A stretch of DNA of 16,603 nucleotides. It comes from SAR116 cluster bacterium (GTDB taxonomy: Bacteria; Pseudomonadota; Alphaproteobacteria; Puniceispirillales; Puniceispirillaceae). Under the pieces are notes generated by a model that worked only from the letters and a program-made list of their open reading frames with translations, was not told the origin of the DNA and did no database searches. The DNA lies in contig PBLR01000016.1 of NCBI GenBank assembly GCA_002722385.1, positions 4,550-21,152 on the forward strand, in the 5' to 3' direction. A program made the translations under genes and the position numbers. Below, piece by piece: positions 7,609-14,656 of the stretch (positions are counted from its first letter, which is position 1; every line of letters starts with the position of its first letter).

Positions 7609-7647
7609 CGCAATTGCGTATCTGTCCGGCAGGCGCATAATGGACAG
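7609..7647. promoter_or_regulatory. Promoter and possible operator of the Lin0512-deaminase operon
   Basis: On the plus strand TTGCGT (7614-7619), a 16-bp spacer and CATAAT (7636-7641) form a plausible promoter with a good -10. Two symmetric elements overlap it: the perfect 10-bp palindrome CGCAATTGCG (7609-7618) over the -35, and the 6-bp inverted repeat CTGTCC (7622-7627)/GGACAG (7642-7647) that brackets the -10. Both are placed where a dimeric regulator could act. The regulator is unknown. Confidence 0.4.
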
Positions 7648-7686: not shown

Positions 7687-8079
7687 ATGGCAAAAAAACG
7701 CGTGGCAATGGAGCTGGGCATGGGCACATCCCTGCGCCGTCAGGATTACACAAAGGCTGCTGTGAGGGCGTTACAGGACGCGCTGTGGCATAATTCGCTG
7801 ACGATGGCTGATGCGTTCGGCTTTTCGCGTGAAGATATGATCGTTGAGGTTGATATCGCGGTGCAGAAACCAGAGAAGGTGGATATTGAGGCGGTCAAGG
7901 CGGTGCTGCCTTATGGCCAGCCGCATATCAAAGTGGTGCATGGCGGCCTGGATATCGCCAAACCCCCAAAGCCAGGGGCCGATGCCGCCGATACTGACAA
8001 AACCGTGATCGCCAATGCCGCGGTCAATGTCTATTTTAATATGGAACCCGCACAAGACAGAGCAGGAGACAAGATATGA
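7687..8079 (+). CDS. Lin0512-family protein, copy 1 (divergent motif)
   Basis: The 130-residue product belongs to the Lin0512 family (TIGR02058/PF09585), whose function is unknown to me. Matching blocks are the N-terminal ELGMG, DYTKAAVRALQDALWHNSL, the VEVDIAVQKPEKVDIEAVKAVLPYG segment with the PEKVD and LPYG marks, KVVHGGLDI and VIANAAVNVYF. The family is described as having a nearly invariant GxGxDxHG motif near the N-terminus; here it reads GMGTSLRR, lacking the Asp, His and last Gly. I prefer the ATG at 7687 over the GTG at 7681 because AGGA and AGGTGA lie at workable distances before it. It is first in an operon and overlaps copy 2 by 4 bp (ATGA), implying translational coupling and a possible hetero-oligomer. 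Confidence 0.85.
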   Translation: MAKKRVAMELGMGTSLRRQDYTKAAVRALQDALWHNSLTMADAFGFSREDMIVEVDIAVQKPEKVDIEAVKAVLPYGQPHIKVVHGGLDIAKPPKPGADAADTDKTVIANAAVNVYFNMEPAQDRAGDKI

Positions 8080-8432
8080 GGCGCCTGATTCTGGAAATGG
8101 GTACAGGTAATGATCTGTATGGTGAGGATTATACCAAAGCCGCAAACCGCGCCGTGCAGGACGCGCTGCATCACAGCTCTCTGGTGTTGTTCAGATCGCT
8201 GGACCTGCCGCATGAGGCGATGCAGGTCAATGTCACCATTGGGGTGCAGGAGCCGGACAAGGTTGATGCAGATGCGGTTGCCGCCACCCTGCCCCGCGGC
8301 CAGGCCAGGGTGAATGTTGTGAAAGGCGGGCTGAATGTGGTGGATAAAGATAATGATACCGTATCTGTGATCGCCACAGCCGCGGTTGAAGCCTGTTATG
8401 ATATCCGGTCTGAAGACTGGCAGCTCAGCTGA
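8076..8432 (+). CDS. Lin0512-family protein, copy 2
   Basis: This 118-residue protein is a second Lin0512-family member, close to the usual length of about 116-120. It aligns with copy 1 along its whole length: LILEMGTGNDLYGEDYTKAA against VAMELGMGTSLRRQDYTKAA, then VQDALHHSSL, QEPDKVDADAVAATLPRGQ, VNVVKGGLNV and VIATAAVEACYD. Its motif reads GTGNDLYG, which keeps the Asp and final Gly of GxGxDxHG and replaces His by Tyr, so it is the more canonical copy. The start codon overlaps the stop of copy 1, with AGGAG seven bases upstream. The stop is 12 bp before the deaminase ATG. The function is unknown; the operon points to purine-like substrate metabolism. Confidence 0.88.
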   Translation: MRRLILEMGTGNDLYGEDYTKAANRAVQDALHHSSLVLFRSLDLPHEAMQVNVTIGVQEPDKVDADAVAATLPRGQARVNVVKGGLNVVDKDNDTVSVIATAAVEACYDIRSEDWQLS

Positions 8433-8444
8433 AAAGGAGTGTTT

Positions 8445-9845
8445 ATGCACAGACAGTTGCTGACACATATTGACGTTCTGGCCACCATGGATAATGGGGG
8501 GGACAATGGGGGCGATAAAGGATGCGGGCGCGAATTAACAGATGCAGCTGTGCTGATAGACGGTAATGTGATTACCAAAGTCGGCCCCACAAGCGCGCTT
8601 GAACAAGAGGCCGCCAGCTGTGATGAGGTTCATAATCTGGCCGGGCATATTGTGCTGCCGGGGCTGGTCAACACCCATCATCATCTGTTCCAGAACCTGA
8701 CCCGGGTTGTACCGGATGCCCAGAATCACAGCCTGTTCGGCTGGTTGCAGACCTTATATCCGATCTGGAGCCATCTGCGGCCGGAAGATATTTATGTTGC
8801 GGCGGCAACAGGCCTGGCTGAGCTGGCGTTAAGTGGCTGTACCACATCATCTGATCACCAGTATCTGTTCCCGCATGGCAGCCGGCTGGATGATTCGATA
8901 GAAGCGGCACATGATGTCGGCATCCGGTTTACCGCCACACGCGGGTCAATGAGCATCGGCGAGAGCAAAGGCGGGCTGCCGCCAGACCAGCTGACTGAGG
9001 CTGAAAACAGTATTTTGGAAGATTGTCTGCGGCTGATCGATGCCTATCATGACGCCTCTGCCCAGGCCATGACCCAGATTGCGCTGGCGCCCTGTTCTCC
9101 GTTTTCGGTCAGTACCGGGCTGATGCGTGATACCGCCGATATGGCCAAAGATAAGGGTGTGGGCCTGCATACACATCTGGCAGAAAATGTTGAGGATATC
9201 GACTATTCGCTGGCCCAGTTCGGCCAGCGGCCAGGTGATTATGCAGAAGAGCTGGGCTGGACCGGAGCGCATGTCTGGCACGCCCATTGTGTGCAGCTGA
9301 ATGAAGAGGAAATCAATTTGTTTGCGCGCACCAAGACAGGTGTTGCGCATTGCCCTTGTTCGAACATGCGGCTGGCCAGCGGGATTGCCCCTGTGCGCCA
9401 GATGATCGATGCCGGTGTGCCGGTCGGGCTGGGGGTTGACGGGTCCTCATCAAGTGACAGCGGGCATCTGATGAACGAAGCCCGGCAGGCGATGTTGTTG
9501 CAGCGGGTCCTGGGCGGGGCAGATAATCTGTCTGCGCGGCAGGCCTTGCGGCTGGCAACACGCGGCGGGGCTGAAGTGCTGAACCGCCATGATATCGGCC
9601 AGATTGCGCCCGGATTCGGTGCAGATATGGCGATTTTCAGCCGCAATTGCATTGAGCTGAGCGGGACCCAGACAGACCCGCTGGCGGGTCTTGTGTTCTG
9701 TGGGCCGGTCAAGCCGCGCCATGTGCTGATTAACGGCAAATGGGTGGTGCGGGAGCATCAGCTGACCACCTTGTCGCTGCCGGATTTGCTGGACCGGCAT
9801 CACCGTTGTGCCACAGATCTGCTGAACCGCAGCCAGGCGGGATGA
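8445..9845 (+). CDS. 8-oxoguanine deaminase-like amidohydrolase
   Basis: 8-Oxoguanine deaminases convert 8-oxoguanine to urate and ammonia; close relatives act on hydroxylated triazines (AtzB) and other purine-like rings. The 466-residue product is a metal-dependent amidohydrolase. It has an HxH pair in NTHHH (78 and 80), HTHLAE (242-247), HAHC (279-282) and the metal-ligand Asp in GVDG (332), with the subgroup's FGWLQTLYPIW (98-108), GCTTSSDH (131-138), CSPFSVS (217-223) and HCPCSNMRLASG (302-313) blocks. The ATG at 8445 is chosen because AAGGAG sits five bases upstream; an upstream in-frame GTG would overlap that site. An odd DNGGDNGGDKGCG insert (about residues 16-28) separates the first two beta strands. 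It is the third gene of the Lin0512 operon and ends just before a bidirectional terminator. Guanine or another purine is an alternative substrate. Confidence 0.87.
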   Translation: MHRQLLTHIDVLATMDNGGDNGGDKGCGRELTDAAVLIDGNVITKVGPTSALEQEAASCDEVHNLAGHIVLPGLVNTHHHLFQNLTRVVPDAQNHSLFGWLQTLYPIWSHLRPEDIYVAAATGLAELALSGCTTSSDHQYLFPHGSRLDDSIEAAHDVGIRFTATRGSMSIGESKGGLPPDQLTEAENSILEDCLRLIDAYHDASAQAMTQIALAPCSPFSVSTGLMRDTADMAKDKGVGLHTHLAENVEDIDYSLAQFGQRPGDYAEELGWTGAHVWHAHCVQLNEEEINLFARTKTGVAHCPCSNMRLASGIAPVRQMIDAGVPVGLGVDGSSSSDSGHLMNEARQAMLLQRVLGGADNLSARQALRLATRGGAEVLNRHDIGQIAPGFGADMAIFSRNCIELSGTQTDPLAGLVFCGPVKPRHVLINGKWVVREHQLTTLSLPDLLDRHHRCATDLLNRSQAG

Positions 9846-9856
9846 GCGTAAGGGAT

Positions 9857-9889
9857 AAAAAAACAGGCCGTGCTGAGACGGCCTGTTCT
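9857..9889. terminator. Bidirectional intrinsic terminator
   Basis: A perfect 9-bp inverted repeat ACAGGCCGT (9863-9871)/ACGGCCTGT (9878-9886) with a 6-base loop, extendable by one A-T pair, lies between the convergent deaminase and BMP genes. A run of seven A (9857-9863) gives a strong U-tract for transcripts arriving on the minus strand, and TTCTTTG gives a weaker one on the plus strand. It should end both operons. Confidence 0.9.
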
Positions 9890-9913: not shown

Positions 9914-11008
9914 TTAGTTCGGGATTTTGCCTTCTACGCCTTCGACATAGTAATTCATTCCCCACAGGCCGCCATCATCAAGCACTTCACCTGCTTTGAG
10001 AATCATATTCCCGCCATTATCTTTCATCGGCCCTTCAAAGATATTCAGGCTGCCATTGCCGATTCCATCACGGGCGGCCGCAGCGGCTTTCGCCACATCT
10101 GCCGGCATGTTCTTGAATTCTGTCAGAACCAGGAAGTCATCACCAATGCCTTTCCAGGTATTGCCTGCCCAATGATCCGGCCCGTCACCAGTTGACCAGC
10201 TGCCATCCATGACTTTTTGGACCTGTTCAATGTAATATGGGCCCCAATTGTTCACAGAGGCGAACAGCTGGGCGTTTGGGGCGAATTCATGCATGTCTGA
10301 AGACTGGCCAAAGCCTTTCACGCCTGCTTTTTCGGCTGTCTGAAGCATCGCCGGGCTGTCTGTATGCTGGGCCAGAACATCTGCGCCTTCAGCAATCAGA
10401 ACCTTGGCCGCATCTGATTCCTTGACCGGATCATACCAGCTGTTGACCCAGACCACTTTGATGGTGGCGTCTTTGTTCACAGACCGCAGACCGCGGGCAA
10501 ATGAATTAATCCCCTGAATCACTTCCGGAATCGGAAACGCGCCCAGATAGCCGATTTTATTTGATTTGGTGGTCAGACCCGCAACCACACCCTGAACATA
10601 GCGGCCTTCATAGAAACGGATGTTGCCGGTGGCCACATTCGCGGCCCGCTTATAGCCGGTGATATGGTCAAAATGCACATCCGGATATTCTTTTGCCACA
10701 CGGATGGTCGGGTCCATATAGCCGAATGAGGTGGTGAAGATCACCTTGTTCCCCTGTGCGGCCAGTTCACGAATCACACGGGCGGCGTCCGGACCTTCTG
10801 GAACATTTTCCACATAGCTGGTTTCTACCTTGTCACCGAAATGTGCCTGCAGTTGCTGGCGGCCCACTTCATGAGCATAGGTCCAGCCATGGTCACCCGG
10901 ATTGGTCAGATAGACAAAGCCGACTTTCAGCGCCTCTGCCTGTGCAGAGCCCAGACCCAAACCCAACAGGGCTGTGGCCAGAGCCAGTTTTGAGAGTAGT
11001 TTTTTCAT
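9914..11008 (-). CDS. BMP-family ABC transporter substrate-binding protein
   Basis: BMP (Bmp/PnrA/Med-like) proteins bind purine nucleosides, nucleobases or related compounds in the periplasm and deliver them to an ABC importer. The 364-residue product begins with a Sec signal peptide: KK near the start, a hydrophobic core and a likely cut after AQA at residue 24. The mature protein opens with the family's ALKVGFVYLTNPGDHGW, followed by the FTTSFGYMDP and HFDHITGYK blocks and IRFYEGRYVQGVVAG in the usual order. It is the last gene of the importer operon, 33 bp after the permease, with a GGAG ribosome-binding site about ten bases before the ATG. The neighbouring deaminase points to a purine-type ligand, but the binding residues alone do not prove which. 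Confidence 0.93.
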   Translation of the reverse strand: MKKLLSKLALATALLGLGLGSAQAEALKVGFVYLTNPGDHGWTYAHEVGRQQLQAHFGDKVETSYVENVPEGPDAARVIRELAAQGNKVIFTTSFGYMDPTIRVAKEYPDVHFDHITGYKRAANVATGNIRFYEGRYVQGVVAGLTTKSNKIGYLGAFPIPEVIQGINSFARGLRSVNKDATIKVVWVNSWYDPVKESDAAKVLIAEGADVLAQHTDSPAMLQTAEKAGVKGFGQSSDMHEFAPNAQLFASVNNWGPYYIEQVQKVMDGSWSTGDGPDHWAGNTWKGIGDDFLVLTEFKNMPADVAKAAAAARDGIGNGSLNIFEGPMKDNGGNMILKAGEVLDDGGLWGMNYYVEGVEGKIPN

Positions 11009-11041: not shown

Positions 11042-11950
11042 TTACCGTGTTGGATGGAACACCCGGCCCAGATGCGCCGGAGCTCCGAAATAATTGCGGC
11101 CGCGGCTGGAGATAAACACCAGCACAAATATTGTAGCCAGATAGGGCAGCATCGACAAAAACTGTGGCGGTACAGTCCAGCCCTTGGCCTGGCCCGCCAG
11201 CTGCATAATGGTGACCCCGCCAAACAAAATTGCCCCGGCCACCAGCCGCCACGGCCGCCAGGACGCAAACACCACCAGAGCCAGCGCGATCCAGCCACGC
11301 CCGGCGGTCATCCCTTCGGCCCAGTGCGGGGTCAGCACAAGCGGCAGATACGCACCGCCCAGCCCGGCCATAAAACCGCCAAATAACACCGCACCTGTGC
11401 GAATCAGAAGAACAGGATAGCCCAATGCGTGCGCGCTGTCATGATTGACGCCCACAGACCGCAAAATAAGCCCCGCACGTGTTGACGATAAAAACCACGC
11501 CGTCAGCGCAACAAAACCAATACAGCCATAGGCCATTACATCCAGCTGAAAAGCAACACCCAGAACCGGAATCTGGTCCAGAACAGGGATCGCCAAAGAC
11601 GGCAGCCCGTCAATGGCCTGCCCCACCAGAGGCGCACCGACCAGCCCGGACAGGCCGGTACCGAAAATGGTCAGGGCCAGGCCCGTTGCCACCTGATTCG
11701 TGGCCAGACCCAGCGCAAATAATGCAAAAACAGCTGCCGTGGCAATACCCGCCAGACCGCCCCCCAAAATGCCTAAATACGGGCTGCCAGTTACAGACGC
11801 CGCGCCAAAGGCGGCCACCGCGCCCATCAGCATTATGCCTTCAACACCCAAATTCAACACACCGCTTTTTTCCGCCACAAGTTCACCTGTGGCCGCCAGA
11901 ATTAAGGGCACAGAAGTCAGCAAAACGGTCAGCAGAAGTTCATCAATCAT
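11042..11950 (-). CDS. BMP-type ABC transporter permease (second permease)
   Basis: The 302-residue protein is an inner-membrane permease of the branched-chain/ribose type (BPD_transp_2), in the NupQ/YufQ-like half that partners BMP binding proteins. The marker motif GELVAEKSGVLNLGVEGIML (22-41) is characteristic of this group. Around eight hydrophobic segments follow, and the C-terminus is short and basic (SSRGRNYFG). It overlaps the preceding permease by 4 bp (ATGA), so the two subunits are probably made in equal amounts through coupling. The permease pair forms the membrane channel for the substrate brought by the binding protein encoded next. Confidence 0.93.
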   Translation of the reverse strand: MIDELLLTVLLTSVPLILAATGELVAEKSGVLNLGVEGIMLMGAVAAFGAASVTGSPYLGILGGGLAGIATAAVFALFALGLATNQVATGLALTIFGTGLSGLVGAPLVGQAIDGLPSLAIPVLDQIPVLGVAFQLDVMAYGCIGFVALTAWFLSSTRAGLILRSVGVNHDSAHALGYPVLLIRTGAVLFGGFMAGLGGAYLPLVLTPHWAEGMTAGRGWIALALVVFASWRPWRLVAGAILFGGVTIMQLAGQAKGWTVPPQFLSMLPYLATIFVLVFISSRGRNYFGAPAHLGRVFHPTR

Positions 11951-13056
11951 GATCCCGCCCGCCTTTGTTGTGCGGTCTGGCCCGCGCGGCCGACCCAGAC
12001 CAGCTGATAGCGTGTCAGCGTTTCCCCCGCCAACAGCATGAATAAAAGTATACCCTTGAAAATACCGGTGACAACCTTGGGAATGGCCATAGAGATCTGG
12101 GCCGTATCACCGCCCAGTTCAGCCAGCGCAACCACCAGACCCGCCACAATCACCGCCAGCGGGTTCAGCCGCGCCAAAAACGCCACAATAATCGCGGTAA
12201 AGCCATAGCCGAATGAAATGTTGGGCTGAAGCTGGCCGATATTGGCGGAAACCTCAACCATGCCGGCCAGCCCGGCAAGGGCCCCAGAAGCCAGCAAAAC
12301 CGCCACCGTCACCCGGTTCGGGCTGAAGCCGGCGAAGGTCCCGGCGCGCGGGGCATCGCCCATCAGCTTGACCTGGAAGCCGCCCAGCATGCGTGAGAGC
12401 ACAATATAGCCCGCCACCGCGATCAAAAGTGCGGCCGGCACCCCCCAATGCAGCTGGCCAAGGCGGCCGATAAAGGGCAGATGCATCGCGCTGATCAGGC
12501 CCGCATCAGGATAATAAGGGGTCAAGGGAAAGCCGAATGACATCGGGTCACGCCAGGGCCCGCGCACAATCCAGTCAATCAACAAGGCCGCCACATAGGT
12601 CAGCATCAGCGAGACCAGAATTTCATTGGTTCTGAAGCGGACCTTGCAGACCGCCGGTATCGCCGCCCAGGCCGCCCCGCAAGCCATCGCGGCAAGCGCC
12701 ATACCGGGCAGCAAAAACACAGAAGTGGTGTCCGGAAAGGACAAGGCCAGCCCGCCTGCCCCAACAGCCCCTGCAATCAGTTGGCCTTCAGCACCGATAT
12801 TCCAGATATTGGCCCGGTAACAGAATACCAGCCCGGTGCCGATGATAATCAACGGACAGGCTTTGACCAGCAGATTGCCGAACTGATCCGGGCGGGACAG
12901 CGGGGCCACAAAAAATTCATATAAGGCAGGCAGAGGCGCATAGCCAAGCAGCGCAAAAATCAGCCCGCCCGCGACCAGAGTCACCAAGACAGAGACCACA
13001 GGCACGGCCAGCGTGACATAAACCGGAACCGCTTGTCGGGGCTGCAGGATAACCAT
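11947..13056 (-). CDS. BMP-type ABC transporter permease (first permease)
   Basis: The 369-residue protein is the larger permease of the importer, of the NupP/YufP-like type. Its signature is RANIWNIGAEGQLIAGA (81-97), and a later FGYGFTAIIVAFLARLNPL block is also diagnostic. It has an N-terminal hydrophobic segment (about 13-37) and several further spans. The C-terminal tail is hydrophilic and basic (GRAGQTAQQRRAGS). The start lies 1 bp after the stop of the ATPase gene and the stop overlaps the next permease by 4 bp, showing a tightly packed operon. The function is to form half of the membrane channel for uptake of a nucleoside, nucleobase or related compound. Confidence 0.93.
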   Translation of the reverse strand: MVILQPRQAVPVYVTLAVPVVSVLVTLVAGGLIFALLGYAPLPALYEFFVAPLSRPDQFGNLLVKACPLIIIGTGLVFCYRANIWNIGAEGQLIAGAVGAGGLALSFPDTTSVFLLPGMALAAMACGAAWAAIPAVCKVRFRTNEILVSLMLTYVAALLIDWIVRGPWRDPMSFGFPLTPYYPDAGLISAMHLPFIGRLGQLHWGVPAALLIAVAGYIVLSRMLGGFQVKLMGDAPRAGTFAGFSPNRVTVAVLLASGALAGLAGMVEVSANIGQLQPNISFGYGFTAIIVAFLARLNPLAVIVAGLVVALAELGGDTAQISMAIPKVVTGIFKGILLFMLLAGETLTRYQLVWVGRAGQTAQQRRAGS

Positions 13057-13057
13057 A

Positions 13058-14656
13058 TCAGACCGCCCCTGCCGGCTGTGCCGCCGCGCCGGATTTCTGG
13101 ACCCCGCCCATCAACAGGCCCACCGCCTGGGCAGACATGTCTGCAGCCGGTTGCGGGGCAGACAGACGGCCTTCAGACAACACCGCGATCCGGTTTGAGA
13201 TGGCAAAAATCTCTTCCAAATCCTGCGAGATCACAATCACGGCGGAGCCAGATGCAGCCAGTTCGATCATCGCCTGACGGATAAAGGTGGCCGCGCCGAC
13301 ATCAACACCCCAGGTAGGCTGGGCAACAATTAGAACACGCGGCTGTTTGATAATCTCGCGCCCGACCACGAATTTCTGCAGATTGCCGCCTGACAAAGCA
13401 GAGGCCTGCGGGTCAGCCATAGGTTTGCGCACATCAAAGGTGGTACTGATCTGTTCTGCCCGGGCCTGCAGCTTGTCTTGCCGGATAAAGCCGTTCGTGA
13501 CCATGCCGTCATCCTGAAAGCCGGTCAGAAGCGCGTTTTGCGACAGGCTCATCTGCGGGACCGCAGCATGACCGTTCCGTTCTTCAGGAATAAAACAAAT
13601 CTGATGCTGGCGGCGGTGATGCGGGCCAAGCTGGCTGATATCTGCCTGTTCCGCCCAGATAACCCCGCTATGCTGTCCCCGCCATTCACCAGACAGGGCG
13701 GCCATCAGCTCATCCTGGCCATTACCCGCAATACCGGCAATGCCCAAAACCTCGCCAGCATGGGCGGTAAGATTGACCTCATCAAGGGCCACTTCAAACG
13801 GGCCATAAGCAGCGCGGGAAAGGGCCCTGACGCTGAACAACACGTCTCCTGAGGACAGGCCTGCGCCGGTTTTGACCGCCTCAACAGAGGTTCCGACCAT
13901 CAATTCAGCCATCTGGTGTGTGGTTTTTTCAGCTGTATCCACCTCAGCCACCTTTTTGCCCCCGCGCAGGATGGTGGCGCGGCTGGTCAGCTGTTTAATC
14001 TCATCCAGTTTGTGCGAGATAAACAGAACCGCACAGCCTGTCTCTGCCAGACGGCGCAACACATCAAACAGCTGATCTGTTTCCTGCGGGGTAAGCACAG
14101 AGGTGGGCTCATCCATAATCAATAAGGACGGGTCCTGCAGCAAACAGCGCATAATCTCTACCCGCTGTTGCTGGCCGACAGACAAATCGGCAACCAGACT
14201 GTCCGGGTCCAGCGGAATACCATAATCTGCAGACCGGGTACGGATCAGCTCATTCAGCTGGTCGCGGGCTTGTGTCTGCGGCAGGGCCAGTTCAATATTT
14301 TCAGCAACCGTCAGGCTTTCAAAAAGAGAGAAATGCTGAAACACCATACCGATGCCCATCGCGCGGGCCTGTTGCGGGTTGGTGATTTGAACCGGCTGTC
14401 CCTGCCAGTCAAACTGGCCGGAATCAGGCTGCAGAAGCCCGTAAATCATTTTCACGAAAGTGGATTTCCCGGCCCCGTTTTCCCCAAGCAACGCGTGCAA
14501 TTCGCCCGGCCTGATGGTGAAGTCAATATCATCATTTGCCACAAATTGACCAAATGATTTGCGGATGCGGCGGCCAGACAACAAACTGCCTGTCTGTGGA
14601 GATACAGAACTGGTCATTTGTGCAGGGTCAGCCTCCAGAACATTCGCGCCGTTCAT
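13058..14656 (-). CDS. BMP-type ABC transporter ATP-binding protein (two nucleotide-binding domains)
   Basis: This 532-residue protein powers the importer and has two fused ABC domains. Domain 1 is complete: Walker A GENGAGKST (58-66), Q-loop near 107, signature LSVGQ (158-162), Walker B LLIMDEP with catalytic Glu 183, and the switch His 215. Domain 2 is of the degenerate type usual in this family. In place of a Walker A it has GIAGNGQDEL (308-317), it has a normal signature LSGGN (421-425), and its Walker B is VLIVAQPTWGVD with Gln instead of Glu and Ser 477 at the switch position. The start is uncertain: the ATG at 14656 has no Shine-Dalgarno, and a second ATG at residue 14 also lacks a well-placed one. 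It is first in the operon. Confidence 0.95.
   Translation of the reverse strand: MNGANVLEADPAQMTSSVSPQTGSLLSGRRIRKSFGQFVANDDIDFTIRPGELHALLGENGAGKSTFVKMIYGLLQPDSGQFDWQGQPVQITNPQQARAMGIGMVFQHFSLFESLTVAENIELALPQTQARDQLNELIRTRSADYGIPLDPDSLVADLSVGQQQRVEIMRCLLQDPSLLIMDEPTSVLTPQETDQLFDVLRRLAETGCAVLFISHKLDEIKQLTSRATILRGGKKVAEVDTAEKTTHQMAELMVGTSVEAVKTGAGLSSGDVLFSVRALSRAAYGPFEVALDEVNLTAHAGEVLGIAGIAGNGQDELMAALSGEWRGQHSGVIWAEQADISQLGPHHRRQHQICFIPEERNGHAAVPQMSLSQNALLTGFQDDGMVTNGFIRQDKLQARAEQISTTFDVRKPMADPQASALSGGNLQKFVVGREIIKQPRVLIVAQPTWGVDVGAATFIRQAMIELAASGSAVIVISQDLEEIFAISNRIAVLSEGRLSAPQPAADMSAQAVGLLMGGVQKSGAAAQPAGAV

Follow-up and report, generated by a model that had tools for sequence, protein, structure and literature searches.

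Two small genes of the Lin0512 family lie side by side in a 16,603-nucleotide stretch of a SAR116 cluster bacterium genome (contig PBLR01000016.1), which we analysed as a whole and call the window. LinA (paralogue A, 130 aa; 7687..8079, + strand) scores 123.4 bits against PF09585 and 72.3 bits against TIGR02058, and LinB (paralogue B, 118 aa; 8076..8432, + strand) scores 122.4 and 65.1 bits against the same profiles, whose cut-offs are 23.4 and 56.85 bits. The two proteins are 42% identical, and the stop of LinA and the start of LinB share an ATGA at 8076..8079 (+ strand). The LinB stop codon (8430-8432) is followed by 12 bases that include AGGAG and then by the ATG at 8445 of an amidohydrolase open reading frame (ORF; 466 aa; 8445..9845, + strand), which scores 657 bits against NF006055 (cut-off 532 bits). 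A terminator-like hairpin at 9862..9887 (+ strand; 10 pairs, 6-base loop, T-rich tail), one of four such sites in the scanned region where 2.2 are expected by shuffling, lies between this operon and a convergent importer on the - strand. The importer comprises a BMP-type (PnrA-like) binding protein (9914..11008; PF02608, 168 bits), two permeases (11042..13056; PF02653, 96.3 and 120.5 bits) and an ATPase with two ABC stretches (13058..14656; PF00005, 170 bits). An earlier description of the locus, the sequence-only reading, had named two Lin0512 paralogues with a 4-bp overlap, a tight same-strand operon with a deaminase-like enzyme 12 bp past LinB, and a convergent BMP importer; the coordinates and profile scores bear out each of these.

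Lin0512 is a named family to which no function is given, and a crystal structure of a member was released in 2008. No paper in the library searched mentions Lin0512, PF09585 or TIGR02058 in its full text. We turned to gene neighbourhoods, using as the main set the best 80 loci from a genome scan with a LinB-rich alignment query. LinA and LinB are both present, in that order, in 80/80 loci, a count to be read knowing that the query biases selection towards pairs. The spacing between them is -8 to +3 bases in 77 of the 80, with the LinB start at -4 in 36 loci, -8 in 21 and -1 in 16, measured from the in-frame start closest to the LinA stop, which biases towards short spacing. Tandem order in every locus with such tight spacing indicates pairing beyond chance. 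The closest named loci come from SAR116 cluster genomes (89-90% identity in LinB).

Genome samples with less bias show how common the family is. Lin0512 is over the cut-off in 11/200 Pseudomonadota genomes (one of them the chosen centre), in 20/289 genomes from the class of Amylibacter (Alphaproteobacteria; centre and a window-clade genome included) and in 3/274 from the class of Halomonas (centre included). All 20 positives of the Amylibacter class have two copies, which are in tandem in 19; the remaining genome, G427, is the only sampled one with two copies that are not in tandem.

We built a tree from 53 pairs (thinned from 102 at at least 80% LinB identity) and 8 lone rows. All B rows form one clade (support 100/93), as do all A rows (96/88), among which are the window's LinA and the G427 row; the seven other lone rows fall outside both clades. 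Midpoint rooting was used, and the alignment offers few columns. These separate A and B clades suggest that a single duplication most likely preceded the spread of the pair. We also read 12 hits that looked fused, and 4 of them are clean natural A-B fusions (P0121, P0122, P0126 and P0134).

The Lin0512 fold appears to be FtsZ C-terminal-domain-like, and the window pair shows the fold of the solved family member 3c8l. The AlphaFold2 model of LinB has a predicted local distance difference test score (pLDDT) of 91 and a predicted template modelling score (pTM) of 0.83. An FtsZ/tubulin GTPase domain was not found in LinA or LinB (130 and 118 aa), for which PF09585 is the sole Pfam match at E 0.001, and a Foldseek search against viral models gave no match at E 0.001 or better. 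A GG motif is invariant in 204 A and B rows. In residue counts over these rows, LinB keeps E7, D13, G16, K21 and R25.

We favour, with modest confidence, the reading that LinA and LinB are the two subunits of an old, self-contained module that changes operons and provides a general service, and not a dedicated part of the deaminase. The module appears to be mobile because its neighbourhoods vary. Two rival explanations concern particular neighbours.

The first is that LinA-LinB cooperates with CobS-CobT, an AAA+/VWA pair, whether as client, as adaptor or as metal/corrinoid partner, in the metabolism of sulfoacetaldehyde or cobalamin, and that the deaminase operon is secondary. For neighbour counts, the short loci L081-L099 and L113-L115 were excluded; their places are covered by longer loci, centre genomes excepted. 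cobS-cobT lie upstream of the pair in 16/80 loci (Halomonas relatives and Betaproteobacteria), and in 10 of these 16 xsc is within the fetched stretch (at least 80% identity; L052 served as the query and is over the profile cut-off). Genes for a TauE-type exporter and phosphate acetyltransferase (Pta) are also present in most Halomonas loci, and the locus of Halomonas urumqiensis (L025) has the TauE-type exporter without cobS-cobT. One further locus, L131 (1342-7433), from another sample, carries on one strand xsc, a phosphate acetyl/butyryltransferase gene, cobS, cobT and, at the end of the run, a single Lin0512 gene of divergent sequence. CobS-CobT with sulfonate genes is the strongest recurrent link outside the window. 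Nine of the 16 loci fall among the 50 genomes that we tested, and CobN was not found in 8 of these nine genomes (E 1e-100), so CobS-CobT there can hardly be an ordinary cobaltochelatase. The pair also occurs among B12 genes: in L107 cobO and cobB flank it at close distance, and the divergent genes cobW and cobN follow a cobalamin riboswitch; in L109 cobO is about 0.6 kb upstream of it, and cobN comes further on. Xsc is present in 42/76 Lin0512 genomes and in 8/80 negative Alphaproteobacteria (41 and 6 over the cut-off), the negatives being 80 of 269 taken by list order and the two groups differing in kinship and genome size.

Several observations count against a CobS-CobT partnership. The fetched stretch lacks cobS-cobT in 64/80 loci, and Xsc was not found in 3/9 genomes of the cobS-cobT type (E 1e-150). 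Xsc is also patchy in the Amylibacter class, where 6/20 positives have it and 11 of the 14 without it belong to the more divergent tree clade. In the phylum sample all 11 positives have CobT, but so do 42/189 others; because CobT is apparently general in one class, its co-occurrence is uninformative. Likewise, CobN co-occurrence, 10/11 against 36/189, shrinks to 10/11 against 25/39 (p 0.14) within a class proxy, defined as the 50 genomes of the 200-genome sample with CobT above 300 bits. Thiamine pyrophosphate enzymes near the pair do not add to the Xsc count: by profiles, those of L022 (an acetolactate synthase), L104, L108 and L109 are not Xsc, and those of other Litoreibacter-type loci are just about 27% identical. 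For the window itself we reject a B12 role, since it has no cobalamin riboswitch at the gathering score, no cob gene among the 10 proteins scanned and no tblastn match above 100 bits to CobO, CobB, CobN, CobW, CobS or CobT. A literature search on CobS/CobT with sulfoacetaldehyde acetyltransferase gave nothing useful, judged from the listings. Overall we consider this explanation unlikely, with an appreciable chance nonetheless of being correct.

The second rival is that of the sequence-only reading, in which LinA-LinB serves the deaminase specifically, as an accessory subunit or as a processing enzyme, on a route for oxidised or modified purines. Judged by its sequence, the window amidohydrolase is of the 8-oxoguanine deaminase type. 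It carries the motifs FQNLT, APCSPFS, LHTHLAE, VWHAHC and GLGVDGS, and its best solved relative, 7ww2 (575 bits), is named as an 8-oxoguanine deaminase or hydroxydechloroatrazine ethylaminohydrolase. According to PMC6186785, 8-oxoguanine, guanine and isocytosine are substrates in this enzyme group. The catalytic Gln, Glu, His and Asp of the guanine deaminase type, as given in PMC13054789, correspond to Q83, E247, H279 and D332 by a by-eye mapping of motifs and spacing. The same source describes N2,N2-dimethylguanine hydrolases (NdmH), which cluster with AtzB and 8-oxoguanine deaminase. We rejected NdmH identity: of the four NdmH positions CQNN described there, the window protein has C217, S218 and S221 at three by motif spacing, reading C-S-S where NdmH has C-Q-N, and the fourth is without a certain mapping.

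The ATGA overlap and the 12-bp spacing favour a dedicated partner, as does the deaminase gene that follows the pair in six of the 80 loci (L001, where it is cut by the contig end, L002, L003, L005, L006 and L007). In L002 it was hidden by our locus listing, which dropped ORFs with more than 5 unknown residues, and was recovered by other searches. All six loci also carry the upstream gene order of the window, so adjacency to the deaminase is no better conserved than that upstream block. The other 74 loci lack the deaminase in the fetched stretch, a few of them being cut short downstream (L012 ends at once). The linkage is thus limited to one clade, and a survey of genomes for the pair with this deaminase, which the sequence-only reading had proposed, goes against a dedicated role. 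In addition, none of the 12 plasmid records with Lin0512 (E 1e-5) is among the 30 with the deaminase (E 1e-120).

At the level of whole genomes there is a weaker link. The deaminase is over the cut-off somewhere in 26 genomes of the first 50 loci; among the other 24, the G001 copy is cut by a contig end and G036 has a partial match. It occurs in 7/20 Lin0512-positive and 20/269 negative Alphaproteobacteria (Fisher p 0.00095; p 0.0027 without G007 and G008), in 8/11 positives and 25/189 others of the phylum sample, and in 8/11 and 11/39 within the class proxy (p 0.013), statistics that ignore kinship and genome size. The enrichment stands in these counts. However, 13 of the 20 positive Alphaproteobacteria have no deaminase at all, and among the seven that do, the genes are adjacent only in G007, of the window clade; in the other six, deaminase and pair lie on different contigs or over 350 kb apart. 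Of the functional linkage first proposed, the tight operon and a loose genome-level enrichment stand and a specific tie between pair and deaminase does not. We ruled out a dedicated deaminase partner as the main explanation on its 6/80 adjacency and regard it as improbable. A purine-specific interpretation of the pair is not general.

In four Lin0512-positive genomes (G021:C20, G026:C47, G028:C50 and G445:C1), which include one Puniceispirillum and one SAR116 genome, the deaminase gene is about 1.4 to 6 kb from xsc. An 8-oxoguanine deaminase is annotated near the beta-hydroxyaspartate cycle genes bhcABCD in L138, and L134 has a similar set of genes for pyridoxal phosphate enzymes.

We give two further explanations little weight. 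RidA/YjgF proteins have an active-site Arg at the trimer interface, and LinA-LinB could hydrolyse imines and enamines in the manner of RidA, removing the reactive compounds that amine-removing enzymes generate. RidA and chorismate mutase structures are among the weak Foldseek matches, and some neighbours would fit: a threonine-dehydratase-like enzyme lies 1 bp upstream of the pair in L047, L048 and L051, an aminoacetone-oxidase-family enzyme is near it in L019 and a DAO enzyme in L036. However, these neighbours are few and lineage-bound, the RidA matches have a template modelling score (TM) of about 0.4 and are interspersed with FtsZ chains, a second Foldseek listing has none among the 50 rows shown, and imine release is not expected from 8-oxoguanine deaminase. 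A literature search on FtsZ-like/YjgF combinations gave nothing useful, again judged from listings, and we hold this role to be very unlikely. Slightly weaker still, and with hardly any probability left, is the idea that LinA-LinB carries out ring opening of the deaminase product, the pair being related, in split form, to the Toblerone cyclic amide hydrolases (AtzD, barbiturase). For it speak a Foldseek search with the A-B fusion, in which 5hy4 comes right after 3c8l (E 2.3e-3, prob 0.60) and 5hy0 and 6dhj rank 5 and 18 amid FtsZ and HypE chains, and the surroundings of atzD on pADP-1, which include a BMP importer as well as a cytosine-deaminase-like amidohydrolase. The Ser of the AtzD SGG motif has a catalytic role. 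We rejected Toblerone membership because those alignments have a TM of about 0.2 and come from a model with modest pTM, hhalign against AtzD (PF09663) gives a probability of 0.1% and 0.6%, and the residue before GG is K, H, F or others but never S in 36 rows, where SGG is invariant in 17 AtzD rows.

Returning to the mobile two-subunit module, we propose that LinA and LinB go back to a single duplication of an FtsZ-C-terminal-domain-like protein and most likely assemble into a hetero-oligomer. Because LinB keeps the ancestral polar set E7, D13, K21 and R25, ligand binding or catalysis probably falls to this subunit, and LinA would be its diverged partner with a structural or regulatory role. 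In the SAR116-like lineage the module would be co-translated with an 8-oxoguanine-type deaminase, which would convert 8-oxoguanine to urate and ammonia. The convergent BMP importer would probably supply the purines, and the module would give a general metabolic service to this catabolic operon. We infer that the pair acts on a small molecule, and its chemistry likewise. In a bolder version, which we find decidedly unlikely, LinA-LinB would be an undescribed two-subunit enzyme or binding machine, with LinB active and LinA its diverged partner, plugged into differing catabolic operons (oxidised purines; sulfonates with orphan CobS-CobT; corrinoid synthesis) and solving one chemical problem that they share.

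In addition to the query bias described above, several points weigh against the module as we picture it. The AlphaFold2 model of the fusion P0122 reaches a pTM of only 0.57, which leaves the A-B contact without a confident prediction, and K21 aligns to I in 3c8l. Eight of the 12 fused-looking hits (P0124, P0127, P0132, P0133, P0137, P0138, P0191 and P0225) resemble frameshift products, so the four clean fusions are themselves less than certain. The two G427 copies are on separate contigs (C92 48628-48930 and C123 1340-1651), with the A copy in mid-contig, and a single Lin0512 copy is found in 3/11 Pseudomonadota positives and 1/3 positives of the Halomonas class. A mobile module also leaves the enrichment of the deaminase in Lin0512 genomes unaccounted for. 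Finally, all of its placements could share one pathway, as yet unrecognised, to which the module is specific.

The deaminase and importer, taken without the pair, look like ordinary purine scavenging. Among the 30 plasmid records with the deaminase we read 6 regions, and in 5 of them it lies with genes for a purine permease, xanthine dehydrogenase, hydroxyisourate hydrolase, urate hydroxylase or guanine deaminase; in one of the regions read, on a Paroceanicella plasmid, a BMP importer adjoins guanine and 8-oxoguanine deaminase genes. This company of purine genes makes the undescribed route for oxidised or modified purines, as first suggested, needless. In L005 and L007 the deaminase and the importer are about 5 kb apart. 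On pADP-1 (L132, 12491-22145) the layout of BMP importer and amidohydrolase resembles that of the window importer and deaminase.

Further neighbours of the pair vary with the lineage and include an EamA transporter, a solute-binding protein, a PAS histidine kinase and biotin synthase. In a Listeria innocua record (L102, 9524-10348) a helix-turn-helix gene is directly 5' of a lone Lin0512 gene. Upstream of LinA, at 7609..7641 (+ strand), the palindrome CGCAATTGCG followed by GCGCATAAT is a possible operator or promoter, judged from conserved letters: it is identical or nearly so in the window and its closest relatives, L001 and L003. The element was not seen in L005-L007, and a sigma-70 promoter scan made no call at it. 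A tRNA gene (799-870, - strand) lies about 6.9 kb before LinA, at a distance similar to that in L003, L005 and L007, and the ORF at 941-2083 is N-formylglutamate amidohydrolase-like (PF05013), under the NCBIfam HutG cut-off.

These results turn a gene pair beside a deaminase into testable claims: that A and B form a complex, that the site is in LinB, and that the pair is recurrently linked to CobS-CobT in sulfoacetaldehyde clusters, in which a knock-out should give an easily read phenotype. They also caution against purine-related annotation of LinA-LinB.

Among known systems, the 8-oxoguanine deaminases 7ww2 and 3hpa share APCSPFS and further motifs with the window protein, whose activity is predicted and whose gene has an unusual operon partner in LinA-LinB. 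The cobaltochelatase subunits CobS-CobT are recurrent upstream neighbours of LinA-LinB in other bacteria, not in the window. The FtsZ C-terminal domain is among the systems closest to the pair itself, together with 3c8l (Nostoc punctiforme Npun_R1471, an "FtsZ-like protein of unknown function"), which belongs to the same family (PF09585/TIGR02058). Whereas 3c8l is of a single chain type, the window encodes two diverged paralogues that overlap by ATGA, one of which retains more of the conserved polar residues.

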